DNA of 64,000 bases from the NCBI RefSeq assembly GCF_005222485.1, contig NZ_CP029078.1, positions 1,640,001-1,704,000 on the forward strand, given 5' to 3'. The DNA is from Streptomyces griseoviridis (GTDB taxonomy: Bacteria; Actinomycetota; Actinomycetes; Streptomycetales; Streptomycetaceae). Of this stretch, positions 8,475 through 37,110 are shown in pieces. The position numbers and the translations under genes were made by a program. Within the stretch, counting starts at the first letter, position 1. Each line of letters opens with the position of its first letter. A model generated the notes under the pieces. It was not told the DNA's origin. It made no database searches and worked only from the letters and a program-made list of their open reading frames with translations.

Positions 8475-9661
8475 CGGACGGGGTGGCGGTGCTCGGCGCG
8501 GGCATGCATCCGTGGGGCAAGTGGGGGCGCGGCTTCACCGAGTACGGCGCGGTGGCGGCCCGCGCGGCGCTCGCGGACGCCGGCCTCACCTGGGGCGAGG
8601 TCGGTTCGATCGTCGGCGCGGTCACCGTGCGTGGCGGGTATCCGGGGTATGTGGCGGGGGCGTCGTTCGCGAAGGCGCTCGGCTGGCAGGGGGCCCGGGT
8701 GGCGAGCGTGTACGCGGCGTGCGCGTCGGGGGCACAGGCCGTCGACACCGCGCGGGCGCAGATCCTCGCGGGGCTCGCCGACGTGGTGCTGGTGGTGGGG
8801 GGCGACGCCGCGCCCAAGGGATTCTTCCGGCCCGTGGGCGGGGACCGGCCCGACGATCCCGACTGGCTGCGTTTCCGGGTGCTCGGCGCCACCAACCCGA
8901 CGTACTTCGGGCTGTACGCGCGGCGGCGGATGGCCGTGCACGGGGACACGGCCGAGGACTTCGCGCTGGTCAAGGTGAAGAACTCGGCGGCGGGCGCGCT
9001 CAATCCGAACGCGCGCTACCGCCGCAGGGTCGGCGCCGAGGAGGTCGCGGCCTCCGCGATGGTCGCCGACCCGCTGCGGCTCCTCGACATCTGCGCGACG
9101 TCGGACGGCGGGGCGGCGCTGGTGCTGTCCAGCATGGAGTTCGCCCGCCGGCACGGCGTGGCCGACCCGGTCCGCATCCGCGCGGTGTCGACGGTGACAC
9201 CGCGCTACCCGAGCACGGTCCTCGACCTGCCGGACATCGCGACGGACTCCACGGTGGCGGCCGAGCCCCCGGACGGCTCGTTCCGGGCGTCCATCGCGCG
9301 GGCCGCCTACGAGGAGGCGGGCGTCGGCCCCGAGGACCTCTCCCTCGCCGAGGTCTACGACCTGTCCACCGCCCTGGAGTTGCAGTGGTACGAGGACCTC
9401 GGGCTGTGCGCGGAGGGCGAGGGCGCGAAGCTGCTGCGGGAGGGCGCGACGGCGCTCGGCGGGCGGATCCCGGTGAATGCGAGCGGTGGGCTGGCCTCCT
9501 TCGGGGAGGCCGTGCCGGCGCAGGCGATCGCGCAGGTGTGCGAGCTGACCTGGCAGTTGCGGGGGCAGGCTGGCGGGCGTCAGGTCGAGGGGGCGCGGGT
9601 GGGCATCACCGCCAACCAGGGCCTGTTCGGGCACGGGTCGTCGGTGATAGCCGTCCGGTAA
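8471..9661 (+). CDS. Thiolase / lipid-transfer protein-like acyl-CoA acyltransferase
   Basis: A 396-residue thiolase-fold enzyme of the SCP-X / nondecarboxylating type. The nucleophilic cysteine lies in YAACASG (Cys84). NASGGLASFGEAV and GLFGHGSS carry the C-terminal catalytic histidine region. It is predicted to cleave or form a beta-ketoacyl-CoA or an aldol-type CoA thioester in lipid, steroid side-chain or aromatic degradation. The GTG start at 8471 overlaps the upstream OB-fold gene by GTGA, and the pairing with a DUF35 protein is diagnostic of this thiolase group. The actual acyl chain is not readable from the sequence, and no other beta-oxidation genes are adjacent. Confidence 0.88.
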   Translation: MTDGVAVLGAGMHPWGKWGRGFTEYGAVAARAALADAGLTWGEVGSIVGAVTVRGGYPGYVAGASFAKALGWQGARVASVYAACASGAQAVDTARAQILAGLADVVLVVGGDAAPKGFFRPVGGDRPDDPDWLRFRVLGATNPTYFGLYARRRMAVHGDTAEDFALVKVKNSAAGALNPNARYRRRVGAEEVAASAMVADPLRLLDICATSDGGAALVLSSMEFARRHGVADPVRIRAVSTVTPRYPSTVLDLPDIATDSTVAAEPPDGSFRASIARAAYEEAGVGPEDLSLAEVYDLSTALELQWYEDLGLCAEGEGAKLLREGATALGGRIPVNASGGLASFGEAVPAQAIAQVCELTWQLRGQAGGRQVEGARVGITANQGLFGHGSSVIAVR

Positions 9662-9740
9662 AAGGCCGCCCGGCGCCCCGCGCCGGTGACGGTTCGACGG
9701 GCGTGCGGCCGTGGGGAGGCAGAGCCGGGCAGGCCGTGGG

Positions 9741-9774
9741 CGGCCCGTACCCCGGTCGGCGGGGGTGCGGGCCG
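9741..9774. terminator. Hairpin between convergent thiolase and cvnD
   Basis: A 13-bp stem with one G.U pair (CGGCCCGTACCCC with GGGGTGCGGGCCG) and an 8-nt loop. It lies between the thiolase stop (9661) and the cvnD stop (9783), placed to end transcription from either side. Confidence 0.6.
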
Positions 9775-9782
9775 TGCGCGGG

Positions 9783-10388
9783 TCAGGTCGTGACGGGGCT
9801 GTGGCGGCGCTCCGCGTACGCCATCGCGTGCTGGACGACCCCGATGAGGATCTCCTTGACGGAGGCGCGGTCCCGCGCGTCGCACAGCAGGACCGGGACG
9901 TCGCCGTCGAGGTCGAGGGCGCGGCGGACCTCGTCCTCGGGGTAACGGGCGCCGCCGTCGAAGCAGTTGACGCCGACGAGGAACGGGATGGAGCGCCGTT
10001 CGAAGTAGTCGATGGCGGCGAAGCAGTCCTCCAGGCGGCGGGTGTCGGCGAGGACGACGGCGCCCAGGGCGCCCTCGGACAGCTCGTCCCACATGAACCA
10101 GAAGCGCTGCTGTCCGGGCGTGCCGAACAGGTAGAGCACCAGGTCCTCGCGGAGGGTGATGCGGCCGAAGTCCATGGCCACGGTGGTGGTGCGCTTGCCC
10201 TCGACGCCACTGGTGTCGTCGACGGGACGGCCGGCCTCGGTGAGCAGTTCCTCGGTGCGCAGCGGTCTGATCTCGCTGACCGCGCCGACCAGCGTGGTCT
10301 TGCCCACGCCGAAGCCTCCGGCCACCAGGATCTTGAGCGTGACGGGCTCGACCGGGGGCTTTCCTCGCTCAGATCGCCCGAAGATCAT
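9783..10388 (-). CDS. cvnD: Conservon small GTPase-like protein CvnD
   Basis: A 201-residue Ras-like / MglA-like GTPase, last gene of a conservon. The P-loop is GGFGVGKTT (residues 24-32), switch II is FGTPGQQRF (89-97), and NCFD (141-144) stands where NKxD confers guanine specificity, so nucleotide preference is slightly uncertain. In characterised streptomycete conservons the CvnA-D proteins form a membrane-associated complex resembling a eukaryotic G-protein receptor system and influence development or secondary metabolism. The start at 10388 follows GGAGAA. It is 43 bp downstream of cvnC and ends at a hairpin facing the thiolase gene. Confidence 0.93.
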   Translation of the reverse strand: MIFGRSERGKPPVEPVTLKILVAGGFGVGKTTLVGAVSEIRPLRTEELLTEAGRPVDDTSGVEGKRTTTVAMDFGRITLREDLVLYLFGTPGQQRFWFMWDELSEGALGAVVLADTRRLEDCFAAIDYFERRSIPFLVGVNCFDGGARYPEDEVRRALDLDGDVPVLLCDARDRASVKEILIGVVQHAMAYAERRHSPVTT

Positions 10389-24732: not shown

Positions 24733-26313
24733 ATGCCCCCAACGGAACGTCCGCCGTCCGGGTCGTCCAGGCCCGCCGCGGGGTCCGGTCACGACGACGT
24801 CGAACTGGCCGAGTTCGGCTACCGGCCCGAACTCAGACGGAGCCTCGGCACCTTCCACACCTTCGCCGCCGGGATCAGCTACATCTCGATCCTCACCGGC
24901 ACGTTCCAGCTGTTCTACTTCGGTTACGGCAGCGGCGGGCCCGCCTACTGGTGGTCGTGGCCGATGGTGTTCGTCGGACAGTTCGCGGTCGCGCTCTGCT
25001 TCGCGGAACTGGCCGCCCGGTATCCCGTCGCGGGCTCGGTCTACAACTGGTCGAAGAAGATCGGCAACCCGCATCTGGGCTGGCTGGCAGGGTGGATGAT
25101 GCTGGTCGCGTCGATCGTGTCGATCGCGGCCGTGGCCCTCGCCTACCAGTTGACGCTGCCGCAGATCTCGTCGTTCTTCCAGTTCGTCGGCGACGGCACC
25201 GGCACGTACGACGTGGCGACCAACGCGGTGGTCCTCGCGACGGTGTTGATTCTCTTCACGACTCTGGTCAATGCGTTCGGCGTCAGATTGATGGCCACGA
25301 TCAACGCGGCCGGTGTCTTCATCGAGTTGATCGCCACGATCGTGTTGATCATCTTGTTCGCCGTCCACATCACGCGCGGCCCGCAGGTCGTGCTGGAGAC
25401 CGAGGGGACGGGGTCCGGGTACCCGGCGGGCTATCTCGGCGCGTTCCTGGTCGCCTCGCTGGCCTCCGCGTACGTCATGTACGGCTTCGACACGGCGGCC
25501 TCGCTCGGTGAGGAGTCCCTCGACCCCTCGCGCAACGCGCCGCGCGCCATCGTCAGGGCGATCGTCGCCTCGTTCGTGCTGGGCGGTCTGGTGCTGCTAC
25601 TGGCGCTGATGAGCGTCTCCAGCCTGAAGGGCGACAAGCTCTCCACGGGCGGCCTCCAGTACGTCGTGCTGAACGTGCTCGGCCCGACGGCGGGCAAGGC
25701 GATGCTGTGGTGCGTGCTGATCGCGGTCACGGTGTGCGCGCTCGCGGTGCACACGGCGGCGATCCGGCTGGCGTTCGCGATGGCCCGCGACAACAACCTG
25801 CCCGGCTCCTCGCTGCTCGCCCGGGTCAGCCCCCGGTTCAGGACACCGGTCCTGCCGGCCGTGCTCATCGGCGTGCTGGCACTGGCGATCCTGGTGGTCA
25901 ACATCCGCCAGCCGCAGATCTTCACGGTCGTGACCAGCATCGGCATCGTCATGATCTACCTCGCCTATCTGGGGGTGACGGCGCCCATGCTGGTGACGCG
26001 GCTGCGCGGCCGGTGGCAGCCTGCCGGTGACGGCAAGTTCTCGCTCGGCCGCTGGGGGCTGCCCGTCAACGTCGTCGCGGTGGTGTGGGGACTCGCCATG
26101 ACGGTCAACCTGATCTGGCCGCGGGCCGCCGTCTACAACGCGGCGGCGCCCTTCCACTGGTACCTGCGGTGGGGCGCGGTCCTCTTCGTCACGGTCATCG
26201 CGGGCGGCGGCTACGCGTACTACTGGTTCGTACAGCGCCACCGCACCGGCGTGCTCGCCGCGCACCGACTGGAGTCCCCGGCGGCGAGGACGGGAGAACA
26301 GGTTGATGGCTGA
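24733..26313 (+). CDS. APC superfamily amino acid / amine permease
   Basis: A 526-residue integral membrane transporter with about 12 hydrophobic segments. A polar N-terminus carries ELAEFGYRPELRRSLG, the opening typical of the amino acid-polyamine-organocation family, and VAGSVYNWSKKIG follows near TM2-3. It ends the amine-catabolism operon and probably imports the substrate (betaine, choline derivative, sarcosine or an amino acid). Betaine more often enters through BCCT or ABC transporters, so the substrate is uncertain. ATG 24733 follows AGGAG. A perfect 22-bp hairpin begins 2 bp after its stop. The 220-bp gap before it contains only three GCGGCT units (24532-24549) and no gene. Confidence 0.9.
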   Translation: MPPTERPPSGSSRPAAGSGHDDVELAEFGYRPELRRSLGTFHTFAAGISYISILTGTFQLFYFGYGSGGPAYWWSWPMVFVGQFAVALCFAELAARYPVAGSVYNWSKKIGNPHLGWLAGWMMLVASIVSIAAVALAYQLTLPQISSFFQFVGDGTGTYDVATNAVVLATVLILFTTLVNAFGVRLMATINAAGVFIELIATIVLIILFAVHITRGPQVVLETEGTGSGYPAGYLGAFLVASLASAYVMYGFDTAASLGEESLDPSRNAPRAIVRAIVASFVLGGLVLLLALMSVSSLKGDKLSTGGLQYVVLNVLGPTAGKAMLWCVLIAVTVCALAVHTAAIRLAFAMARDNNLPGSSLLARVSPRFRTPVLPAVLIGVLALAILVVNIRQPQIFTVVTSIGIVMIYLAYLGVTAPMLVTRLRGRWQPAGDGKFSLGRWGLPVNVVAVVWGLAMTVNLIWPRAAVYNAAAPFHWYLRWGAVLFVTVIAGGGYAYYWFVQRHRTGVLAAHRLESPAARTGEQVDG

Positions 26314-26314
26314 T

Positions 26315-26362
26315 GGTTGACGGGCGGACGGGTTGAACCGTCAACCCGTCCGCCCGTCAACC
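26315..26362. terminator. Perfect 22-bp hairpin between permease and SMC operon
   Basis: Arms 26315-26336 and 26341-26362 are perfectly complementary over 22 bp, around a 4-nt loop (ACCG). It starts 2 bp after the permease stop and faces the 3' end of the convergent SMC gene. The arms are built from GGTTGA and CGGGCGGACG. Confidence 0.75.
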
Positions 26363-26382
26363 CATAGACCCATCAACCCATT

Positions 26383-26414
26383 GATCGGTCAACGGGTTGA
26401 TCGGTCAACGGGTT
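26383..26414. repeat. Two tandem 16-bp units GATCGGTCAACGGGTT
   Basis: Two perfect tandem copies (26383-26398, 26399-26414), themselves made of GTTGA/TCAAC half-sites. They lie inside a tract from about 26301 to 26470 in which GGTTGA or TCAACC recurs about nine times and runs into the last codons of the SMC gene. Confidence 0.85.
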
Positions 26415-26455
26415 GACGGGCCAGCACATTGATGGGCACCGGATCGACGGGGTGA

Positions 26456-29400
26456 TCAACCCGTCGTCGACGGCTCACTCCCGGCCGGTTCCGGCCTCTT
26501 GTACATCCGGGTCGCCGTGATCTCGCTGCGCACGCCGTCCTCGGCCGGTGTCTGCTGAGGCAGTCCGGGCCGCAGGTGCTCCTCCACGCTGATGTACTTC
26601 AGACCAGCGCGCAGGTCGGCGTCGTTGCGCAGCCGAATGACGAGCGGGAACTCGGCGAGCGCCGTGGTGTCGAACAGGCCGGTGGTGTACAGCAGTTGGA
26701 CGCCGAGGGCGTCGGACACGGCCCGTTGCAGCTCCAGCAGGTAGGTGGCGTTGGCGCGGCCGATGGGGTTGTCGAGGAACAGGGTGCCGGCGTGCCGGTG
26801 TTTGTCGCGGCCCCGGTCGTTGGAGCGCAGGGCGGCCATCGTGCAGTACAGGGCGATGGCCGCGGTGAGCAGCTGGCCGCCGGAGAACACGTCTCCCATC
26901 TGGCCGACGGGCACCCGCTCGGCGCGCAGCACGGCGTCCGGCTTGAGGATCTCGACGGCGACGCCCTTGGGCTGGAGGGCCGCGGCGACGCCTCTCAGCA
27001 GCAGGGACATGCCGTCCCTGCGCAGGTCGGAGTTCTTCTTGACGGCGGCCCTCGTCGCCTCGTCGACGACCTCGCCGAGCCGCTCGGTGAGGGTGGCCTG
27101 GTCGGGTTCCTCGAAGCGGATGCGCAGGAACTCCTGCCCCGACCACTCGCCGAGCCCCTCGGGCAGCCGGGAGAGGCGCTGCGCCGAACGCAGGGTGGCG
27201 AGCGACGTCTCGACCAGGCCCCTGAGCCGGTCGACGATCGAGTCGCGGTTGCGTTCCAGTTGGGTCAGCTCGTCGGTGAGGACGCGCAGCCGGGGTGCGA
27301 AGGCGTCGGCCCACTTCTGGGCGTGCTCGGGCAGCGAGGCGGCGGGCAGTTCGCGGATCTGCTGCCTGGCCGGGGTGCGGACCTGTTCGTAGCGGGTGGA
27401 GTTGGCGTGCCTGACCAGGACGTCGCTCGCCTCGCGGACGCCTCCCTCGGCGGCCGACAGGTCGGCCGCGCAGCCGCGCAGCGACCTGCGGGCGTCGGCG
27501 GCGGCCTGCCGGGCCTCCTCCGGGGTGCCGGGGTAGGGCTCGGGCTCCTCCTGGTCGTCGTCGGCGATGTGTTCGCGCAGCAGGTCGCGGAGCATCGCGG
27601 TCAGTTCGTCGAAGCCGCCGGCCGCGTCCTCGGCGGCGCGGTGGGCGCCCTGGAGTTCGGCGTGTGCCGCTCGGGTCTGCGCCAGGGTCTCGGTGCGGAC
27701 GGCGAGTTCGGTGGTGGCGGTGCGCAGCAGGGCCTGCGCGTGTTCGGCGTCGCGGGGCTGGAGTTCGTCGGGCAGGTCGGTGTGTGCCTCGCCGTCCTCG
27801 GGTGCGTGCCGTTCGGCCTCGCCGCGCAGCCGGCCGAGTTGCTCGCTCGCGTGGGAGACCCGGGTCTCCAGGAGCTGCACCAGTTCCTCGGCGCGGGCGG
27901 CGGCGGCCTGCCGGGAGGGTCCGTCGGAGCCGTCGGTCGACTGGAGGAGGAGGGCGGCGCGGGTACGGACCTTGTTGCTGAGCCGGTCGAGTTCGGCGAG
28001 GGCGGCGCTCTGGTCGCTCTCGGCGCGGGCCTGTTCGGCGCGCAGGTCGGCGCCGACGCCGACCTTCTCGTACACCTGGGAGGCGGCCCGGTACGCCTCG
28101 CGCAGCGCGGGCAGCGATGTCTCGGAGGGGTCGCCCGCGGGGACATCGTCGGGGGCGCCGGCGATCTCGGAGCGTTCGGCGCGCAGGGCGCGGGCGGTGC
28201 GGCGGGCGTCGTCGGCCGCGCGCTGGGCGGCCCTGCGGTCCTCGTCGGCGGCGCGTGCGCGGTCCAGGCAGGTCTGGGCGCGGGCCTCCGACTCGGCGGC
28301 GTCGTCGGCCAGTTCGCGCAGGGTGGCCTGCCAGCCGGCCCGTTCGCGCAGCCGGAAGGCGAGCCCGGCGAGGGCGTCGGCGGAGCGCCGGGCCTTCTGG
28401 GCGGCGTCCTGCCGTTCGTCGCGCAGCCGGGTGGCCTCGGCGGCCGTCTCGTCGGCCTCGGCCCTGGCGACGCGGGCCTCGGTCAGTTCGGCCTCGGCCT
28501 CTTCGGCGAAGGCGTGCGCGTCCTGTGCGGCCTGTGCCAGTTCGACGAGGCGTCCGGTGGGGCAGCCGGTGCGCCAGGAGGCGAGGCGGGCGGCCAGTTC
28601 CCGGTCCTTGCCGAGGCGGGCGGCGAGGCCGCGGATCTCGTCGTCGCGCTCGGTGGCGCGGGCGCGCAGGGTCTGGCGTTCCTCGTCGGCGGCGTGTTCG
28701 TCGTGCATGGCCGGGTTCGGCGGTACGAGGAAGACGCTGACGTCGGGGGTGTCGCCGTCGGGGGTGTCGAGTGCGGGGGCGGGCGCGAGGAGGGCGGCGG
28801 CGGTGCCGACGGCCACGGCGGACCTGGGCAGCAGGGCCGCGTCGCCGAGGGCGGCACGGGCGCGTGCGTGGGTGTCGGGGTCGGTGATGATGACGCCGTC
28901 GACGAGTTCGGGGCGGGCGGCGAGGACGCGCGCGTGGTCGGCGGGGTCGACGGCCTGGGCGAGGTAGCGCCAGCCGGGCAGGGCGGGGATGCCCTGTTCG
29001 CCGAGGAACTCGACGGTGGCCAGCACGTCGGGGCCGGGCGGCAGGAGTCCGCCGTCGCCGAGGGCGCCGAGGATGCGGGAGTCGTCGGCCGCGGCGGTGC
29101 GCAGTTCGAAGAGTTGGCGTTCGGCGGCGGAGACGGAGTCGTCGAGGAGTTCGCGCAGTTCGTCGGCGAAGCGGTCGAGTTCCTCGGGGGTGAGGGCGCC
29201 CTGGCCCGGGTCGTCGCCGTGGTGGCGAGGGCCGGGGACGGTGGTGCGGGTCTCGGTGCCGGAGAGGCTGAGCAGTTCCGCGAGGCGTTCCTCGGCGGCC
29301 AGTCCTTCGGCGAGGCGGCGTTCGGCGTCGTGGCCACGGCGGGCGGCGGTGGCGGCGTCCGCCGCGCGGGCCGCCGTCAGTTCGGCACGGGACTCGGCGG

Positions 29401-31102
29401 CCGCGGCTTCGCGCGCGTGTTCGGTGGCGCTGCGGGCGGCTTCGCGGGCGGTGTCCCAGGCGGCGACGGCGGTCTTCTCGGCGTCGCTCGCGGCGAGGGC
29501 GGCGCGGGCCGGGTCGGCGTCGGGCGCGCTGTCGTCGAGCCAGCCGGCGCGGACCGCCTCGGCGGTCTCCTGTTCGACCTCGGTGAGGCGCTGGCGCAGG
29601 TGTCCTGCCTCGCTGCGGGCGCGCTGTGCCTCGGTGGCGGCGACGGTGGCGTCCCGGTGGGCCGTCTCGCCGGTCTCCTGGAGGGCGGCGGAGCGCTCCT
29701 CGCCCTCGTTGGCGAGGTTCTCGGCGTTCTCGGCGGCGGCGTGCAGGGCGCGGACGAGGTCGACGGCGGCCTGGGCGCGGGCGGCGAGGGCGGGGGCCGC
29801 GTCCCGTTCGGCCTCCTGGATGGCGGAGGCGACGCGGGCGACGCGGTCGGCGGCGGCGCGGTGGCGCAGGACGGCCTCGGCTCCCTGCCAGGCGGCGTGC
29901 AGGGTGCGCGCGTCGGCCAGTTCGCGTTTCTGGGCGGCGGCGGACTTCTCGGCGGCCGCGAGGGCCAGTGAGGCGTTGCGGTAGGCGAGTTGCGCGGCGA
30001 TCAGGGAGCTGCGCTCGCGGGCCGACTCGGCCTGGGTGACGGCGTGGGCGGCGCCGGTGACGCGGGTGGCGAGGTCGGCGGCGCGGGTCCGCTCCTGTCC
30101 GCCGCGCGCGGAGAGCCTGCGGGCCAGGGAGCGGGTGCGGCGCTCGGCGCCGGTGTGGATCTCCCGCGCGCGGGAGCGTGCGTCGGCGGCCTCGACGATC
30201 CGCCCGAGCAGGTCGACGGAGCCGGCGGTGAAGTCGCGTTCGGCGATCAGTTCGGCCCGCCTGCCGAGTTTGTTGCCGAAGCCGCCGATCAGGTCGGCGA
30301 GCCCGTCGGTGTCGCGGGTGTCGGTGACGGCGCGCAGCAGCAGGTCGGTGAAGTCGGAGTCCTTCTTGACCGCGAAGAGGCCGGCCGCCTCGCCCTCGTC
30401 GGCGTTCATCTCGCGCTGGTAGCGGAAGAGTTCGGGGTCGAGGCCGAGGTCGCCGAGGTGTTCGATCCAGCGGTCGTGGGTCTCCTCCCAGTGCACCTCC
30501 AGATGCGGGTACGCCTTGCCCGCCTCGGTGAGGGCGTCCCTGAAGCCCTTCATGGTGCGGCGGCGGCCGCGTGCGCCCGACTGCCCTTCGACGGGTGGCC
30601 GTACGGCGGTGGACTCGGCGACCGGCAGGTTGTCGAGGCTGAGTCCTGGGCCCGGACGGAAGGAGTACCAGGCCTCGGCGAACTTGCGCGGGTCGTTGGA
30701 GACCTGACGGCCGCGCCATTCGCTGGCCTTGCCGACGACGACGCACTCGCCGGTGAGGGTGTGCTGCCACTCCAGGACGACGTGTCCGCAGTCGTCGGCG
30801 AGCAGGAACTTGCGCAGGACGCCGGAGCTGGCGCCGCCGAGGGTGTTGCGGTGGCCGGGCAGCATCACCGAGAAGATCAGCTTGAGCAGGACGGACTTGC
30901 CGCCGCCGTTCTCCAGGAAGAGGACTCCGGCGGGGGCCGGGCGGCGGGGCGGGCCGACCGGTTCCTCCTCGAAGAACTCCGCCTGCGTGGGGGCGGGGTC
31001 GGGCACGGGCCGGCCGACGCCCCGCAGGTCAAGCACGGTGTCGGCGTAGCGCGCACCGGCGGGCCCGATGGAGTAGAGGCGGACCCGGGACAGCTCGTAC
31101 AT
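26456..31102 (-). CDS. SMC-like coiled-coil ATPase (MksB/JetC-like)
   Basis: A 1548-residue P-loop ATPase with SMC layout. Walker A (ENGGGKS, residues 64-70) is at the N-terminus. Very long Ala/Glu/Arg-rich coiled-coil arms flank a more globular middle (about 650-800). ABC signature FSGGQ (1406-1410) and Walker B TLFLDN (1440-1445) are near the C-terminus. The residue after the Walker B aspartate is asparagine, not the usual glutamate. Such proteins form DNA-encircling dimers with a kleisin and a winged-helix KITE subunit. It is the third gene of an operon in the order kleisin-like, KITE-like, SMC, as in MksFEB or Wadjet JetABC. Assignment rests on architecture and gene order, without a database match. 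Confidence 0.8.
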   Translation of the reverse strand: MYELSRVRLYSIGPAGARYADTVLDLRGVGRPVPDPAPTQAEFFEEEPVGPPRRPAPAGVLFLENGGGKSVLLKLIFSVMLPGHRNTLGGASSGVLRKFLLADDCGHVVLEWQHTLTGECVVVGKASEWRGRQVSNDPRKFAEAWYSFRPGPGLSLDNLPVAESTAVRPPVEGQSGARGRRRTMKGFRDALTEAGKAYPHLEVHWEETHDRWIEHLGDLGLDPELFRYQREMNADEGEAAGLFAVKKDSDFTDLLLRAVTDTRDTDGLADLIGGFGNKLGRRAELIAERDFTAGSVDLLGRIVEAADARSRAREIHTGAERRTRSLARRLSARGGQERTRAADLATRVTGAAHAVTQAESARERSSLIAAQLAYRNASLALAAAEKSAAAQKRELADARTLHAAWQGAEAVLRHRAAADRVARVASAIQEAERDAAPALAARAQAAVDLVRALHAAAENAENLANEGEERSAALQETGETAHRDATVAATEAQRARSEAGHLRQRLTEVEQETAEAVRAGWLDDSAPDADPARAALAASDAEKTAVAAWDTAREAARSATEHAREAAAAESRAELTAARAADAATAARRGHDAERRLAEGLAAEERLAELLSLSGTETRTTVPGPRHHGDDPGQGALTPEELDRFADELRELLDDSVSAAERQLFELRTAAADDSRILGALGDGGLLPPGPDVLATVEFLGEQGIPALPGWRYLAQAVDPADHARVLAARPELVDGVIITDPDTHARARAALGDAALLPRSAVAVGTAAALLAPAPALDTPDGDTPDVSVFLVPPNPAMHDEHAADEERQTLRARATERDDEIRGLAARLGKDRELAARLASWRTGCPTGRLVELAQAAQDAHAFAEEAEAELTEARVARAEADETAAEATRLRDERQDAAQKARRSADALAGLAFRLRERAGWQATLRELADDAAESEARAQTCLDRARAADEDRRAAQRAADDARRTARALRAERSEIAGAPDDVPAGDPSETSLPALREAYRAASQVYEKVGVGADLRAEQARAESDQSAALAELDRLSNKVRTRAALLLQSTDGSDGPSRQAAAARAEELVQLLETRVSHASEQLGRLRGEAERHAPEDGEAHTDLPDELQPRDAEHAQALLRTATTELAVRTETLAQTRAAHAELQGAHRAAEDAAGGFDELTAMLRDLLREHIADDDQEEPEPYPGTPEEARQAAADARRSLRGCAADLSAAEGGVREASDVLVRHANSTRYEQVRTPARQQIRELPAASLPEHAQKWADAFAPRLRVLTDELTQLERNRDSIVDRLRGLVETSLATLRSAQRLSRLPEGLGEWSGQEFLRIRFEEPDQATLTERLGEVVDEATRAAVKKNSDLRRDGMSLLLRGVAAALQPKGVAVEILKPDAVLRAERVPVGQMGDVFSGGQLLTAAIALYCTMAALRSNDRGRDKHRHAGTLFLDNPIGRANATYLLELQRAVSDALGVQLLYTTGLFDTTALAEFPLVIRLRNDADLRAGLKYISVEEHLRPGLPQQTPAEDGVRSEITATRMYKRPEPAGSEPSTTG

Positions 31103-31139
31103 GGCGGACTCTCGTAAGTCTTCGGCAGGTGAGGGGGGT

Positions 31140-32030
31140 TCAGTACTGCGACGGGGCGTGGAAGGGCAGTCCGGCGTCGGCGACCAGGTCGAGGTCGTCG
31201 GTCTCCTCGGCGGGCAGCAGGGTGGGGGTGCCGTCGGTGACCGGGACGACGCCCAGCTCCAGCAGTTCGGCGAGGGCGGCGCTGCCCGCGAGGTCGCGGA
31301 CCTGGAGCTGGTAGCGGGCGGTGGTGCGGTAGGTGCCGCCGTTGTCGTCGCCGGTGCGCTGGAGGAAGCCGGAGTCGGTGAGGAAGACGACGGCCTTGCC
31401 GACGATGCCGGTGGTGGATCCTGCGAGGCGGCGGGCGTCCTTGGTGGCGCCGGTGGCGCTGCGTCTGGCCCAGATCCGCCAGGCGGCTTCGAGGCCGGGG
31501 GTGTCGGTGGCGGGGTCGGTGTTCTCGCCGCTCTCCTCGGCGCGTTCCTCCAGGCGGCGGCAGGCCTGGCGGACGAAGGCGTCGACGCCGTTGACGGAGA
31601 CGCGGCCGATGTAGCCGTCGTCGGCGAGGTCCTCGGGGCGGGGGAACGCCAGGGCGGCGACGGCGAGATGGGCGAGTCCGTGCAGGAAGCGGTCGCTGCC
31701 GTCGGCGGAGGTGCGGCGGGCGTAGTCGCCCATCCGGACGGCGAACACCGAGTCCTCTGCGGCGGTCACGGCCATCCCCGCGCGCGGGGACACTTCGAGG
31801 ACGATGAGGCCGAGGCCGGCGGCGACGGCGTCCGCGAGCCGCGCGAACGGCGGGTCCTCGCGGTAGCGGCGCAGCAGTTCGGCGTACTCCTGGTCGCGGG
31901 CGGGCTGGAGTTTGGGCTGGAGGCCGAAGGCGACGAGCCGCGCCGCGTCGGCGGCGTCGGCGGGGGTCACGGGGGCGTTCGCCGGCGCGGCGGGTGCCTC
32001 CGCGTCGCTCCACTCGACGTGCTCGCTCAC
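31140..32030 (-). CDS. Putative winged-helix KITE subunit (MksE/JetB-like)
   Basis: A 296-residue soluble protein. The middle reads as alpha-helical. A C-terminal winged-helix-like segment (VVFLTDSGFLQRTGDDNGG followed by TYRTTARYQLQV) resembles the wHTH of MukE/MksE-type KITE proteins. No catalytic motif is seen. The GTG start at 32030 follows AAGGAG. It lies 58 bp after the kleisin-like gene and 37 bp before the SMC gene, on the same strand, so the three are probably one operon. I cannot name the family with certainty: the assignment is by size, predicted fold and position. Confidence 0.65.
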   Translation of the reverse strand: MSEHVEWSDAEAPAAPANAPVTPADAADAARLVAFGLQPKLQPARDQEYAELLRRYREDPPFARLADAVAAGLGLIVLEVSPRAGMAVTAAEDSVFAVRMGDYARRTSADGSDRFLHGLAHLAVAALAFPRPEDLADDGYIGRVSVNGVDAFVRQACRRLEERAEESGENTDPATDTPGLEAAWRIWARRSATGATKDARRLAGSTTGIVGKAVVFLTDSGFLQRTGDDNGGTYRTTARYQLQVRDLAGSAALAELLELGVVPVTDGTPTLLPAEETDDLDLVADAGLPFHAPSQY

Positions 32031-32088
32031 GGCGTGGGCTCCTTGTTCTCGTGGGTGGGGGCGTCGTCCGGGTGCGGGGCGTGGGGCA

Positions 32089-33615
32089 TCAGGCGGCCTC
32101 CGTCCGGTCGGCGGCCATCCCCGCCGCGTCCAGCAGGGCCGTCCCGACGATGAGGTCGGCGCCGCCGAACTCGGGGTCGTCGAGTTCGGTGCCGTCGTCC
32201 ACGGCGAACAGCAGTCTCTCCTCGCCCTGCCGGTAGGCGGTGCCCACGGCGGGGCTGGCCGCGTGCACGGCGAGCAGGGCGACGAGGTAGGGCAGTTCGG
32301 GGTCCTGGACGCGGGCCTCGGCGAGCAGCCCGGAGAGGCGTCGCGGCGCGTCGGCGGGGAGGTCGAGGAGGCGTGTGGCGGCGGCGAGCTGCTCCTCGCT
32401 GAACCGGCTGTCGTCCGGGGTGGCGATGAGGTCGGGTTCGGGCATCTCCACGCCGAGGTGCTCGCGTTCGACGGGCGGTGTCAGCAGCAGGTCGACGAGG
32501 TCGGTGACGCGGACCGACACGGGGGTGCGCAGGCCGGTGCCGCGGGCGAAGAACGCGTCGGTGACGCGGACCGCCTGTTCCAGGGGCAGTGGCAGGACGG
32601 GGGCGAGGAGGTGTCCGTAGAGGTCGGTCCCCGAGGTGGTCATCGGGGTGGCGAAGGCCTGCCGGTCCTGTTCGGCGCGGAACAGCGGTCCCGCTTCGAG
32701 CAGTCGGGACTGGAGCTGGGTGTGGCGGCGGATGCAGTCCTTGACGATGTCGACCAGTTCGGCGGCGCGGCGCTTGTGCTCCGGCTCCTCCGTCTCGTCG
32801 CGCGCCTTGCGGATGTTGGTGAGGATGGCGTTCTCGTGCCGGTAGCGGTCGGCGACGTGGTCGAGCGCCTCGGTGATCATGTCAGGGACGGTGTTGAGCC
32901 AGTCGACCGCGCGGACGTTGCGCCGGGTGGCGTCGAGGGCGCGGCGCAGGGTCTCGGAGAACTGGACGGTGCGGTAGCGGGCCTGTTCGGCGGCGAGTTG
33001 GGCGTCGGCGAGGCGGCCCCGGTTGATCAGGACCTCCAGCTTCACCTCGGCGGCGATCTGGGCGCTGGTGACGTCGGTGTCGAGGGCGCCGACCAGGACG
33101 TTGACCGCTTCGTCGGTGGTGCGCAGGTAGACGGTGCCGCCGGGGCCCGGCACCTCCTCGATCAGCTTGAAGTCGTAGTCGCGCCTGACGTAGCTGCCGT
33201 CGGACGCGAACGTGCCGTACACGGCGCGGAAGCCGCGGTCGACGCTGCCGACGTTGACGAGGTTCTCCAGGACCCAGCGGGCCACCCGCTCGTGCTCGGC
33301 GACGGGCCGCAGCGGGGCCTGCGCGGCGATGCGGGGGACGAGGCGGGCGACTATCTGGTCGTGGTCGGCGCCGGTGTCGAAGTCCATGTTCAGGGTGACC
33401 AGGTCGATGGCGGCCAGGGCCACTTCGGCCATGCCGTAGACCGTGTACTCGCCGGCGAGATTGGCCTTGCGGGCGTCGAGGTCGTGCAGCGGCGCGGTGC
33501 AGGCGAGCGCGCGCAGCCGCCGCGCCAGGCCCTCGTCGGCGGCCGGGCCCGGCGCGGGGCGCGGCCCCGCGCTGAGCTGGGGCGGAACACGGTCCGTCGA
33601 TGCAGGCGAAGTCAC
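32089..33615 (-). CDS. Putative kleisin-like subunit (MksF/JetA-like)
   Basis: A 508-residue, largely helical protein with no catalytic motif. The N-terminal third (LNMDFDTGADHD; RWVLENLVNVG; YDFKLIEE) looks like a winged-helix DNA-binding or dimerisation region. The rest is heptad-rich (EAEVKLEVLINRGRLADAQ; DYRHENAILTNIRKA-type helices), as in MukF/MksF and JetA. It is first in the operon. The GTG at 33615 lacks a ribosome binding site but sits 7 bp after a good -10 (TAGTCT), so the message may be leaderless. An in-frame ATG 10 codons upstream lies inside that promoter. Confidence 0.68.
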   Translation of the reverse strand: MTSPASTDRVPPQLSAGPRPAPGPAADEGLARRLRALACTAPLHDLDARKANLAGEYTVYGMAEVALAAIDLVTLNMDFDTGADHDQIVARLVPRIAAQAPLRPVAEHERVARWVLENLVNVGSVDRGFRAVYGTFASDGSYVRRDYDFKLIEEVPGPGGTVYLRTTDEAVNVLVGALDTDVTSAQIAAEVKLEVLINRGRLADAQLAAEQARYRTVQFSETLRRALDATRRNVRAVDWLNTVPDMITEALDHVADRYRHENAILTNIRKARDETEEPEHKRRAAELVDIVKDCIRRHTQLQSRLLEAGPLFRAEQDRQAFATPMTTSGTDLYGHLLAPVLPLPLEQAVRVTDAFFARGTGLRTPVSVRVTDLVDLLLTPPVEREHLGVEMPEPDLIATPDDSRFSEEQLAAATRLLDLPADAPRRLSGLLAEARVQDPELPYLVALLAVHAASPAVGTAYRQGEERLLFAVDDGTELDDPEFGGADLIVGTALLDAAGMAADRTEAA

Positions 33616-33622
33616 GGTGCAC

Positions 33623-33653
33623 AGACTAGGTCCTCGGTCTGACATCGACCCAA
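33623..33653 (-). promoter_or_regulatory. Promoter of the SMC operon, probably leaderless
   Basis: Minus strand: -35-like TTGGGT (33648-33653), 19-bp spacer, -10 TAGTCT (33623-33628), then 7 bp to the GTG at 33615. The first transcribed base would be the G of the start codon, and no Shine-Dalgarno sequence is present. Leaderless messages are common in Streptomyces. Confidence 0.5.
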
Positions 33654-33795
33654 ACGGCACAGATGGCCCCCGCGCCACGCCGGGTCCCGCGCGATCCCAC
33701 GCGGTCCCGCCGGAGCGACGAACGCCCGTGCGCCCGTGCATGCGTGCGCCCGTGCGCCCATGCGCCTACGTCACCGACCTGCCGGGCCGGCCTGC

Positions 33796-34491
33796 TCAGC
33801 CGTGGTCGCCGACCCGCCTGCGGTACACGTCGAGGACCCGTTCCAGTGAGTCCTTGAGGTAGACGGCGAGCATGGTCTCGGCCTCGTCGTGGCGTCCCGC
33901 GCGCAGGGTCTCGTGGAGCCGGTGGTTGCGCTCCAGGTAGGGCTCGTGCAGGCGCTTCGGGTCGTCGACGACGTGGAAGGCGAGGCGGAGTTCGGCGAAG
34001 ACACCGCGCATCAGTTCGTCGGTGCGCGCGCTGCCGGCGAGGGCGACCAGTTCCCGGTGGAAGTGGATGTTGGCGGTACCCACCGCTTTCCAGTCACCTT
34101 CGTGGGCGGCCCGCTGCCCCTCCTCGACGGCCGCGGCGAGCGCCCGCAGGTCGTGGGGCGGCTCGCCGAGCCCGCGGACGACGGCGCACTCGACGAGGAT
34201 GCGGGTGCGGTAGATGTCCTCGACGTCCTCCACGGTCAGGACCCGGACGAAGACGCCACGGTTCAACTCGTGGACGAGCAGCCGCTCATGGGTGAGCAGC
34301 CGGAACGCCTCGCGCAGCGTGTTGCGGGAGACCCCGAGGGCGCCGCCGATGCCGTCCTCCGACAGCCGCGTCCCCGGAGGGAAGAACCCGTCGGCGATCC
34401 GGCTCCTGAGGATGTCCGAAACACGTTCGGCGGTGCTGGTCCGCCCGAGCAAGGCGCGGTCGTCGGCCAGGTCGGTCAGCTGCTCTGCCAT
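33796..34491 (-). CDS. GntR family regulator, FadR/FCD type
   Basis: A 231-residue repressor-type regulator. The N-terminal winged helix-turn-helix (RLSEDGIGGALGVSRNTLREAFR is the recognition region, about residues 45-67) is followed by an all-helical FCD ligand domain with metal-binding histidines (IHFHREL; NHRLHETL). It diverges from pxpABC, and a perfect palindrome lies in the gap. It probably represses the 5-oxoprolinase operon and itself, with 5-oxoproline or a related acid as effector. The start at 34491 (MAEQLTD) is preferred over an ATG 13 codons upstream, though neither has a strong ribosome binding site. Confidence 0.9.
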   Translation of the reverse strand: MAEQLTDLADDRALLGRTSTAERVSDILRSRIADGFFPPGTRLSEDGIGGALGVSRNTLREAFRLLTHERLLVHELNRGVFVRVLTVEDVEDIYRTRILVECAVVRGLGEPPHDLRALAAAVEEGQRAAHEGDWKAVGTANIHFHRELVALAGSARTDELMRGVFAELRLAFHVVDDPKRLHEPYLERNHRLHETLRAGRHDEAETMLAVYLKDSLERVLDVYRRRVGDHG

Positions 34492-34853
34492 GCCCGGAAT
34501 TGAACCGCAGACACCAGGACGAGACAACATGGGGATTGAAGGATCGTTGAACGATCCTCTACTTTACGGAGAGTCCAGGGTTCTTCCCGACCCAGGGCGA
34601 CGCGGCTGATCCAGCCCGACCTGGTCCGCTCCCTGCCACCCCCACCAGCACCCTCCGTCCTCCCCCTGCGAGGTGCACATGAGCACGCCAACCGGAGACC
34701 AAGGGAAGGGACCTGACCTGAGCCGCACCGAGGACCGCCGCCGGCCGGTACGCGCGCGTGGCACCCCGTCCGGCAGGACGGGACACCGATGACGGAACCG
34801 GCCGACGCCCGCGACGAGCGGTACCGCGTGGCCCGAGTGGAAGCATGGGGAGC
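34492..34853. other. Divergent GntR / pxpA control region
   Basis: 362 bp. The only clear signal is the palindrome at 34541-34557. In-frame extension of pxpA runs upstream to 34758 but has no homology-like character and was not accepted. Confidence 0.6.
34541..34557. promoter_or_regulatory. Perfect 17-bp palindrome, candidate GntR operator
   Basis: GGATCGTT-G-AACGATCC is a perfect palindrome, 50 bp from the GntR start and about 300 bp from pxpA. FadR-subfamily regulators bind short palindromes of this length in divergent promoters. Confidence 0.6.
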
Positions 34854-35612
34854 ATGACCTCGATCGACCTGAACGCCGACCTCGGTGAGGGCTTCGGCCG
34901 CTGGAGTCTCACCGACGACGAAGGGCTGCTGTCCGTCGTCACCAGTGCCAACGTGGCCTGCGGATTCCACGCCGGGGACCCCGCCACCATGCGCCGGGTG
35001 TGCGCGCTCGCCGCCGAACGGGGGGTGCGGATCGGCGCCCAGGTCTCCTACCGGGACCTGGCCGGGTTCGGCCGCCGCGCGATGGACGTGCCGGCCGACG
35101 AGCTCACCGCCGAGGTCGCCTACCAGATCGGCGCCCTCGACGTCTTCGCGCGCGCGGCCGGCACGCGCGTGTCGTACGTGAAGCCGCACGGCGCGCTCTA
35201 CAACAGGGTGGTGCGCGACGAGGAACAGGCCGCCGCGGTCGTGGCCGGTGTCAGGCTCGCCGACGCCTCCCTGCCCGTCCTCGGCCTGCCCGGCTCCCGG
35301 CTGCTCGACCTCGCGGCCCTGGCCGGACTCCCGGCCGTCCCCGAGGCGTTCGCCGACCGCGCGTACACCGACCAGGGCACGCTGGTGCCGCGCGACCAGG
35401 ACGGTGCCGTCGTCACCGACGCGGAGACGGTGGTGGCGCGCTCGCTCGGTCTGGCCAGGGACGGCGAGGTCGCCTCCCGCTCCGGCGCGCGGGTCGCCGT
35501 CCGCGCCCGTTCGCTGTGCCTGCACGGCGACACGCCCGGCGCGGTCGAGCTGGCCCGGCGGGTCAGGGACCGGCTGCGGGACGCGGGCGTCCGGGTGGAG
35601 GCCTTCGTATGA
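34854..35612 (+). CDS. pxpA: 5-oxoprolinase subunit A (LamB/YcsF family)
   Basis: A 252-residue LamB/YcsF protein. Family motifs are DLNADLGEGFGRW at the N-terminus, ANVACGFHAGDP (about 29-40), KPHGALYN, and SLCLHGDTPGAV near the end. It is subunit A of the prokaryotic ATP-dependent 5-oxoprolinase PxpABC, which opens 5-oxoproline to L-glutamate. ATG 34854 follows GGGGAG; an ATG three codons upstream is also possible. It is the first gene of a three-gene operon with two ATGA overlaps. Confidence 0.95.
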   Translation: MTSIDLNADLGEGFGRWSLTDDEGLLSVVTSANVACGFHAGDPATMRRVCALAAERGVRIGAQVSYRDLAGFGRRAMDVPADELTAEVAYQIGALDVFARAAGTRVSYVKPHGALYNRVVRDEEQAAAVVAGVRLADASLPVLGLPGSRLLDLAALAGLPAVPEAFADRAYTDQGTLVPRDQDGAVVTDAETVVARSLGLARDGEVASRSGARVAVRARSLCLHGDTPGAVELARRVRDRLRDAGVRVEAFV

Positions 35613-36235
35613 GCCGCATGAGGGCGCTGCGGGTCGGCGCCGACGCGCTGCTCGTCGAGGTGGCGTCGGGCGAGGAGGCGCGGGCCCTGCACGCGGAGCT
35701 GCTGCGCCGTCGCGCGGAGGGCGCGCTGACGGTCCGTGAGCTCGTCCCCGCGGCCCGTACGGTCCTCCTGGACGGCCTGCGCGACCCGGCCCGCCTCGCG
35801 GCGGAGCTGGCCGCGGCCGAGGTGCCGCCCGCCCCGCCACCGTCCGGCGCGGCGGTCGAGATCCCGGTCCGCTACGACGGGCCCGACCTGGCCGACGTCG
35901 CCGCGCTCTGGGGCGTCACCCCGACGGCGGCGGCCGGGATCCACGCGGACACCGAGTTCACCGTCGCCTTCTGCGGTTTCGCGCCGGGGTTCGGCTATCT
36001 CACCGGCCTGCCCGAGCGGTACGACGTACCGCGCAGGGCGACCCCGCGCACCGCCGTACCGGCCGGTTCGGTGGCTCTCGCCGGGCCCTACACGGGCGTG
36101 TACCCGACGGCGTCGCCGGGCGGCTGGCAGCTGATCGGGCGGACGGACGCCGTGCTGTGGGACCACGCGCGCGTACCGGCCGCGCTGCTGTCGCCCGGCA
36201 CGCGCGTGCGTTTCGTCGCGGTGGGCCCCTCATGA
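35609..36235 (+). CDS. pxpB: 5-oxoprolinase subunit B (allophanate hydrolase subunit 1 / KipI family)
   Basis: A 208-residue protein with the family core EIPVRYDGPDL, FCGFAPGFGYLTGLP and PAGSVALAGPYTGVYP. With PxpC it forms the catalytic part of 5-oxoprolinase; homologues form the KipI inhibitor of B. subtilis. The start overlaps the pxpA stop (ATGA) and the stop overlaps pxpC (ATGA), so expression is tightly coupled. Confidence 0.95.
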   Translation: MSRMRALRVGADALLVEVASGEEARALHAELLRRRAEGALTVRELVPAARTVLLDGLRDPARLAAELAAAEVPPAPPPSGAAVEIPVRYDGPDLADVAALWGVTPTAAAGIHADTEFTVAFCGFAPGFGYLTGLPERYDVPRRATPRTAVPAGSVALAGPYTGVYPTASPGGWQLIGRTDAVLWDHARVPAALLSPGTRVRFVAVGPS

Positions 36236-37110
36236 CGGACCGCGCGCTGGTCGTCGTCAGGGCCGGGGCGCTGACCACGGTGCAGGACCGGGGCCGGCCC
36301 GGCCACGCCCACCTCGGGGTACCGCGATCCGGCGCGCTCGACGGTCCCGCCGCCGCCCTCGTCAACCGGCTGGTCGGCAACCCGCCCGGGGCGGCCGTCC
36401 TGGAGACCACCCTGGACGGCTGCGCCCTGCGCCCGCGCGCGCCGGTCACCATCGCCGTGGGCGGCGCCCCCTGCCCGGTCCGGGTGGACGGCAGACCCGT
36501 CGCCTGGGCGGCGCCGGTGCGGGTCCCGGCCGACGCGCTCCTGGAGGTCGGCGCCCCGACGCGCGGGGTGCGCGGCTATGTGGCCGTCTCCGGCGGGATC
36601 GCCGTCGAACCGGTCCTGGGCAGCCGCTCCACCGACCTGCTCTCCGGCCTCGGCCCACCGGCCCTGACCAACGGCACGGTCCTGCCGCTGGGACGGCCCG
36701 GGGCTCCGCACGCGCGCGTGGACGTCGCGCCGCAGCCGGCGCCGCCGGCCGAGCTGATCCTGCGGGTGACGGTCGGACCGCGCGACGACTGGTTCACCCC
36801 GGCGGCGCTGCGCGTCCTCACCACGCGCGCGTACCGGGTGTCGCCCGCCGCCAACCGGATCGGGCTGCGCACCGAGGGACCCGTCCTGGAACGCGCCGTC
36901 GGGGGTGAACTGCCCAGCGAGGGCATGGTGCTGGGCGCGGTCCAGGTGCCGCCGGACGGCCGGCCGGTGGTCTTCCTCGCCGACCATCCGACGACGGGCG
37001 GCTACCCGGTGATCGCGGTCGTCCACCCCTCCGACCTCCCGGCGGCGGCCCAAGCCGCGCCCGGAACACCGATCCGGTTCGTACGGATGTCCGATCGGGC
37101 GGGTCGGTAA
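36232..37110 (+). CDS. pxpC: 5-oxoprolinase subunit C (biotin-dependent carboxyltransferase-like / KipA family)
   Basis: A 292-residue protein of the urea-amidolyase C-terminal / KipA family. Typical segments are TTVQDRGRPGHAHLGVPRSG at the N-terminus, AANRIGLRTEG, and LADHPTTGGYPVIAVV near the end. It is the third subunit of 5-oxoprolinase. The name carboxyltransferase reflects homology, not activity here. It ends 42 bp before the convergent SGNH hydrolase gene. Confidence 0.95.
   Translation: MTDRALVVVRAGALTTVQDRGRPGHAHLGVPRSGALDGPAAALVNRLVGNPPGAAVLETTLDGCALRPRAPVTIAVGGAPCPVRVDGRPVAWAAPVRVPADALLEVGAPTRGVRGYVAVSGGIAVEPVLGSRSTDLLSGLGPPALTNGTVLPLGRPGAPHARVDVAPQPAPPAELILRVTVGPRDDWFTPAALRVLTTRAYRVSPAANRIGLRTEGPVLERAVGGELPSEGMVLGAVQVPPDGRPVVFLADHPTTGGYPVIAVVHPSDLPAAAQAAPGTPIRFVRMSDRAGR

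Follow-up and report, generated by a model that had tools for sequence, protein, structure and literature searches.

A JetABC operon without JetD in Streptomyces: a type III Wadjet relative that probably serves as a second housekeeping condensin

In Wadjet systems the JetABC complex is described as extruding DNA and sensing its size, while the nuclease JetD cuts it (PMC10586767, PMC12647877), and an IFDR motif in the N-terminus of JetB is named as the docking motif for JetD (PMC10586767). For the related MksBEF complex of Pseudomonas aeruginosa, an origin by loss of JetD has been proposed in the same source. Wadjet was reported in 42% of Actinobacteria, with an enrichment at Streptomyces chromosome ends, in a study whose main text does not contain the word JetD (PMC10482375), and the PADLOC definition of Wadjet, as given in its description, needs all four genes and has MukFEB cases reported as Wadjet 'other' (PMC9252829), so that automatic surveys may have listed loci lacking the nuclease without comment. 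Here we describe such a locus, a jetA-jetB-jetC operon without jetD, in a stretch of 64,000 nucleotides from Streptomyces griseoviridis (NZ_CP029078.1, positions 1,640,001 to 1,704,000; hereafter the window, in whose numbering positions are given). Searches of the open-access PMC library, which does not cover subscription papers and preprints, brought up no description of a JetD-less JetABC of Streptomyces.

The explanation that we favor, and consider probable though well short of certain, is that this operon is a type III Wadjet JetABC which lost its nuclease and is now a fixed second housekeeping condensin in the Streptomyces family. The genes and the ATPase motifs of JetC are as follows.

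32089-33615, minus strand: jetA, kleisin subunit, MukF/MksF-like, 508 aa, PADLOC JetA3; frame open to 33741
31140-32030, minus strand: jetB, KITE subunit, MukE/JetB-like, 296 aa, GTG start with AAGGAG upstream
26456-31102, minus strand: jetC, SMC-type ATPase, 1548 aa, PADLOC JetC3
30893-30916, minus strand: Walker A of JetC, LENGGGKS, residues 63-70
26873-26887, minus strand: ABC signature of JetC, FSGGQ, residues 1406-1410
26759-26785, minus strand: Walker B of JetC, TLFLDNPIG, residues 1440-1448

All three frames are intact. They follow one another in the order A-B-C on one strand with short gaps, as an earlier note on this DNA had described for proteins of 508, 296 and 1548 residues; the gaps measure 58 bp (jetA-jetB) and 37 bp (jetB-jetC). 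The longest jetA frame (32089-33741) would encode 550 aa; since coding statistics place the start at 33615 and most of the JetA relatives listed have 507-526 aa, mostly 508-509, the shorter protein is preferred. The family link to JetABC/MksFEB drawn in the same note is borne out by strong matches of JetA to the PADLOC JetA3 profile (PDLC00567, 616 bits) and of JetC to the JetC3 profile (PDLC00588, 1407 bits), both of Wadjet type III, and by fold comparison of the predicted models, in which MukF chains rank first for JetA and MukE/JetB chains rank first for JetB. The two smaller proteins, for which a lack of resemblance to kleisin and KITE folds would have spoken against the link, do resemble these folds in their predicted models. 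JetC retains Walker A, signature and Walker B. The FSGGQ signature is identical in all 22 core JetC sequences, and LENGGGKS is identical in the 20 whose chosen start included the block and is also present in longer frames of the other two; in the four JetC rows that appeared without Walker A in the motif comparison, the automated start fell after the block, which lies upstream in each of them. SMC proteins usually carry LDE at Walker B. The LDN found here also occurs in ten JetD-linked type III copies, so that this variant is common to JetD-less and JetD-bearing type III JetC alike. No IFDR-type motif was seen at the N-terminus of type III JetB in either class. A sequence search of the PDB with JetA, JetC and two profiles returned no relative and no Muk or Jet chain, and JetC has no sequence match to MukB/MksB in Pfam, NCBIfam or the PDB, the assignment to JetC3 coming from PADLOC. 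As JetC matched nothing in NCBIfam up to E = 1, it is not a member of SMC_prok_B; the canonical SMC of this genome, which is, is encoded by a separate gene at genome position 6237220-6241206.

The absence of JetD, also claimed in the earlier note, was confirmed within the sensitivity of the profiles used: no match was found in the window, and neither Pfam PF09983 (JetD_C) nor the PADLOC JetD3 profile PDLC00594 found anything in the complete genome (one contig, 8962736 bases, 100% completeness). PDLC00594 was added because PF09983 misses some type III JetD, namely in four genomes (G007, G022, G090 and G094) in all of which PDLC00594 finds it; a JetD of the present genome too diverged for Pfam was considered and rejected on the empty result of this second search. 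In a sample of 121 Streptomyces genomes PDLC00594 matched 18, of which ten matched strongly (at least 150 bits) and were exactly the ten with a second, diverged JetA, while the remaining eight matches were weak (at most 32 bits) and lay at sites where PF09983 also matches. With the two profiles combined, JetD is matched in 19 of these genomes and in none of the other 102. Surveys relying on PF09983 would undercount Wadjet type III, given that it overlooked the type III JetD of four of ten genomes. A JetD gene within the operon of close relatives would have spoken against the reading of the earlier note, and none was found in any orthologous locus examined: JetD is lacking in all 20 same-genus loci (L049-L068), in L088 and in all 11 loci taken from six further genera of the family (L233-L243). 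No JetD match was obtained in 80 loci from named genomes (JetC in view in 74, of which 62 extend at least 1.5 kb beyond it), nor in seven Frankiaceae loci, six of which reach past JetC. Three of the seven Frankia genomes have a JetD match elsewhere; two of these matches are weak (25-28 bits), and the strongest, in G285, comes from a truncated JetD that lies next to remnants of JetC and belongs to a separate and broken accessory system (L245); the same genome also retains the JetD-less operon.

The operon is close to universal in its genus and family. A JetA match was found in 118 of the 121 Streptomyces genomes, with 79-95% identity for the main copy (the window itself excepted), and the three genomes without one comprise two that are 78-82% complete and one that is 98% complete. 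In the family sample JetA matched in 120 of 121 genomes and in all 17 genera, and the main type (at least 74% identity) was present in 119 genomes and 16 genera, the remaining genus (G318) having only a copy of 26% identity. In the class sample of 197 genomes, for which up to seven candidates per genome were scored and distant copies may be missed, 23 genomes matched, 16 from Streptomyces and seven from Frankiaceae (58-62% identity). A scan of named genomes with a Frankiaceae JetA, of which 80 of 463 relatives were kept, placed Frankia, Parafrankia and Pseudofrankia first; the rest of the relatives kept were from Streptomyces, Yinghuangia, Actinacidiphila, Streptantibioticus and one further Streptomycetaceae. 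Chance does not account for the A-B-C order, since all 20 same-genus loci and all 11 loci taken from six further genera of the family have it as well. When 21 Frankia loci were compared with 87 loci of the Streptomyces family, only jetABC was common to both, save one weakly matching gene (33% identity, in seven of the 87 loci), indicating that the unit consists of three genes.

In contrast to this operon, the JetD-bearing type III copies are patchily distributed and lie in part on plasmids. Ten of them are second copies in Streptomyces (L069-L078), where jetD follows jetC; the two genes overlap by four bases in eight of the nine copies whose JetD start is known and by 14 bases in the ninth. 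JetD is also present in six of seven further copies (L226 and L228-L232; the seventh, L227, ends inside jetC), in a diverged copy whose JetC was not matched (L244), in a linear Rhodococcus plasmid where it is annotated as such (L209) and in a Streptomyces plasmid (L225), that is, in all 19 accessory copies with the downstream side in view among the 20 that were fetched. In PLSDB five records have a JetA relative, all below 60% identity, and two of the five were examined; phage records contained no JetA relative. One Streptomyces genome (G090, locus L075) has identically scoring accessory JetA genes at 8876-10297 and 9228837-9230258 of a 9.24 Mb contig, close to either end, an arrangement reminiscent of terminal inverted repeats; for the second copy the JetD match is shorter. 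The JetD-less operon lies within 20% of a contig end in 26 of 30 genomes picked for a large contig, and the accessory copies do so in seven of eight cases, so that position does not separate the two.

The JetA tree points to the JetD-bearing form as the older one. Alignments A2 and A3 comprised 26 of the 39 sequences extracted (12 of 22 core, five of seven Frankia and nine of ten accessory, without L078), and a second tree of 43 rows combined these 26 with nine of the 11 core loci from other genera (not L238 and L241) and eight further accessory loci; it left out L078 for its very long branch, L230 because jetA is interrupted there, and L244, and L227 was in no group since its contig ends inside jetC. 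In this second tree, rooted at the midpoint, all 26 JetD-less rows fall on one side of a branch with support 94/93 (97/96 in the first tree of 39 rows), outside of which JetD-bearing forks have 100/100 and 98/92 with a weaker fork of 92/71 between them; long branches in the accessory rows prompted a warning from the tool. The presence of JetD beside the diverged paralogous copies suggests that theirs is the ancestral form. With the JetD-less clade nested among JetD-bearing copies, the simplest reading of the sequences would be a single loss of JetD in the ancestor of the copies now found in the Streptomyces family and Frankiaceae. As these are not known to be sister families, either intermediate lineages would have lost the operon or it would have moved.

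Selection on the retained genes bears directly on whether the operon is a decaying Wadjet relic kept by chance, as the missing JetD might suggest. Median ratios of nonsynonymous to synonymous substitution rates (dN/dS), with the window as reference, were 0.131 for JetA, 0.240 for JetB and 0.257 for JetC, and within JetC 0.140 for the N-terminal head, 0.309 for the coil and 0.075 for the C-terminal head, compared with 0.276, 0.233, 0.206 and 0.270 for four neighbor genes (automated start choice; 22 sequences each for JetA, JetB and JetC, 10-16 per neighbor gene). JetA and the JetC heads are thus the most constrained, and JetB and whole JetC lie within the range of the neighbors. A relic is contradicted by these values, JetA and the JetC C-terminal head being below all four neighbors, as well as by the invariant ATPase motifs and by the retention of JetABC even in Streptomyces genomes of 5.5-5.8 Mb, and we give it hardly any credence.

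Two ways of retaining a defensive role deserve more weight, although both appear unlikely. In a non-cutting form of immunity, JetABC would extrude small circular or invading DNA and then compact, silence or trap it; Smc5/6, which restricts extrachromosomal DNA in eukaryotes, offers a rough comparison. Streptomyces harbors many conjugative plasmids. Moreover, it is JetABC that confers the size and shape sensing of Wadjet according to the account cited (PMC10586767), and its parts are intact here. However, the near-universal copy in syntenic loci is unlike the patchy JetD-bearing type III copies, which are found in ten of 121 genomes. It also counts against this form of immunity that Streptomyces maintains small circular plasmids, among them pIJ101 and SCP2. 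Slightly less probable still is a system against plasmids or phages in which JetD is replaced by an unlinked or different nuclease. Loss of a linked effector leaves one in trans conceivable, and the 19 Streptomyces genomes with a match to one of the two JetD profiles could be counted for it; the complete genome of the present strain has no JetD by either profile, however, the other 102 genomes match neither, and beyond jetABC the Frankia and Streptomyces-family loci share nothing except the one weak gene mentioned above. Hydantoinase/oxoprolinase genes, the NIT-domain kinase, the YcsF/carboxyltransferase genes and glycosyltransferases were considered as substitute effectors among the neighbors and rejected, as none recurs in Frankia.

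The earlier note had left the choice between a chromosome-organizing condensin and an anti-plasmid system with another effector; its near-universality, its occurrence as a single copy of this type in each genome, its synteny and the purifying selection on it favor the former without proving it. Because JetABC extrudes and senses size and JetD cuts, only the motor would remain without JetD, and a constant task is argued for by a JetABC that is fixed and under constraint. According to the housekeeping explanation, JetA and JetB would hold dimers of JetC that are powered by ATP; the complex would load on DNA and, alongside the canonical SMC, form loops of the cell's own chromosome by extrusion or tether such loops, without cutting the DNA. 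The chromosome as substrate, loop extrusion, by analogy with Wadjet, and the absence of any substitute effector are all inferred. In S. venezuelae single deletion of smc or hupS is stated to have no significant effect on growth rate or differentiation, and the phenotype of the smc hupS double mutant is described as rather mild (PMC8410768). These findings are compatible with a second condensin. Several observations weigh against a housekeeping condensin. An abstract of 2026 reports replication and germination defects of an smc mutant (PMC13121528), and such real defects indicate that SMC is not simply backed up. Passages on S. venezuelae smc mutants studied by Hi-C and microscopy mention no second Streptomyces condensin (PMC8410768, PMC13121528), and the Mks complex of Corynebacterium glutamicum, though it has MksG, is described as not acting on the chromosome (PMC7083940). 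Furthermore, matches in only two families of the class sample, with up to seven candidates scored per genome, are patchy for a basic chromosome function, the support of 94/93 for the JetD-less branch falls short of the tool's mark of 95 in a tree rooted by midpoint, and the complex may act on foreign DNA.

The genes that flank the operon change from locus to locus. The two nearest in the window are:

33796-34530, minus strand: GntR/FCD regulator, upstream of jetA and co-directional; probably outside the system
24733-26313, plus strand: amino-acid permease, downstream of jetC and convergent; outside the system; frame open from 24283

Both had been correctly placed in the earlier note; 180 bp separate the end of the GntR gene from jetA, and 142 bp the end of jetC from that of the permease gene. 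Neither is a constant neighbor across 20 same-genus loci, and hence neither informs on function. The changing neighbors include GntR regulators, oxoprolinase-type genes, glycosyltransferases and a NIT-domain kinase; a hydantoinase/oxoprolinase gene of about 1200 aa lies upstream of jetA on the same strand in six of the 20 same-genus loci and is adjacent in four. The window itself has a NIT-domain histidine kinase, glycosyltransferases and, beside the GntR regulator, YcsF and two carboxyltransferase-domain genes at 34845-37110. An Rfam scan of 25000-36000 gave no match, and promoter and terminator scans gave nothing exceeding shuffled sequences.

We tentatively propose, as a broader idea that may well prove wrong, that the Streptomyces family, together with a Frankiaceae cluster, has a further type of bacterial condensin, a domesticated Wadjet type III motor that is fixed throughout the family. 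In multigenomic, sporulating hyphae this motor would cooperate with SMC in handling the large chromosomes. If this is true, the second condensin would help to explain the mild effects on growth and differentiation in smc mutants, and it is directly testable in Streptomyces. The locus looks like a clean case of a defense machine turned into a household machine, in which the disarmed form became fixed in a bacterial family of industrial importance while JetD-armed forms still circulate as accessory elements in some of the genomes that carry it. It also calls for caution in defense surveys, as three of the four Wadjet genes here probably do not constitute plasmid defense.

Compared with known systems, the operon resembles Wadjet type III in its strong JetA3 and JetC3 matches, its gene order and the LDN of Walker B, and differs from it in lacking JetD, in being near-universal rather than patchy and in not being met on plasmids, where the five JetA relatives in PLSDB all lie below 60% identity. 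With P. aeruginosa MksBEF it shares a kleisin-KITE-SMC operon without a MksG nuclease gene; the Streptomyces lineage, however, is type III by PADLOC, so that its loss of JetD would be an independent parallel to that proposed for MksBEF. The predicted folds of JetA and JetB resemble MukF and MukE of MukBEF, but no Muk or Jet chain was retrieved from the PDB by sequence, and the genome has a canonical SMC gene as well. C. glutamicum MksBEFG is likewise described as an actinobacterial kleisin-KITE-SMC complex beside SMC-ScpAB (PMC7083940), but it has MksG and is reported to act on plasmids and not on the chromosome (PMC7083940, PMC10123090). Finally, the operon is distinct from SMC-ScpAB, since JetC lies outside SMC_prok_B and the SMC_prok_B gene of this genome is another one.

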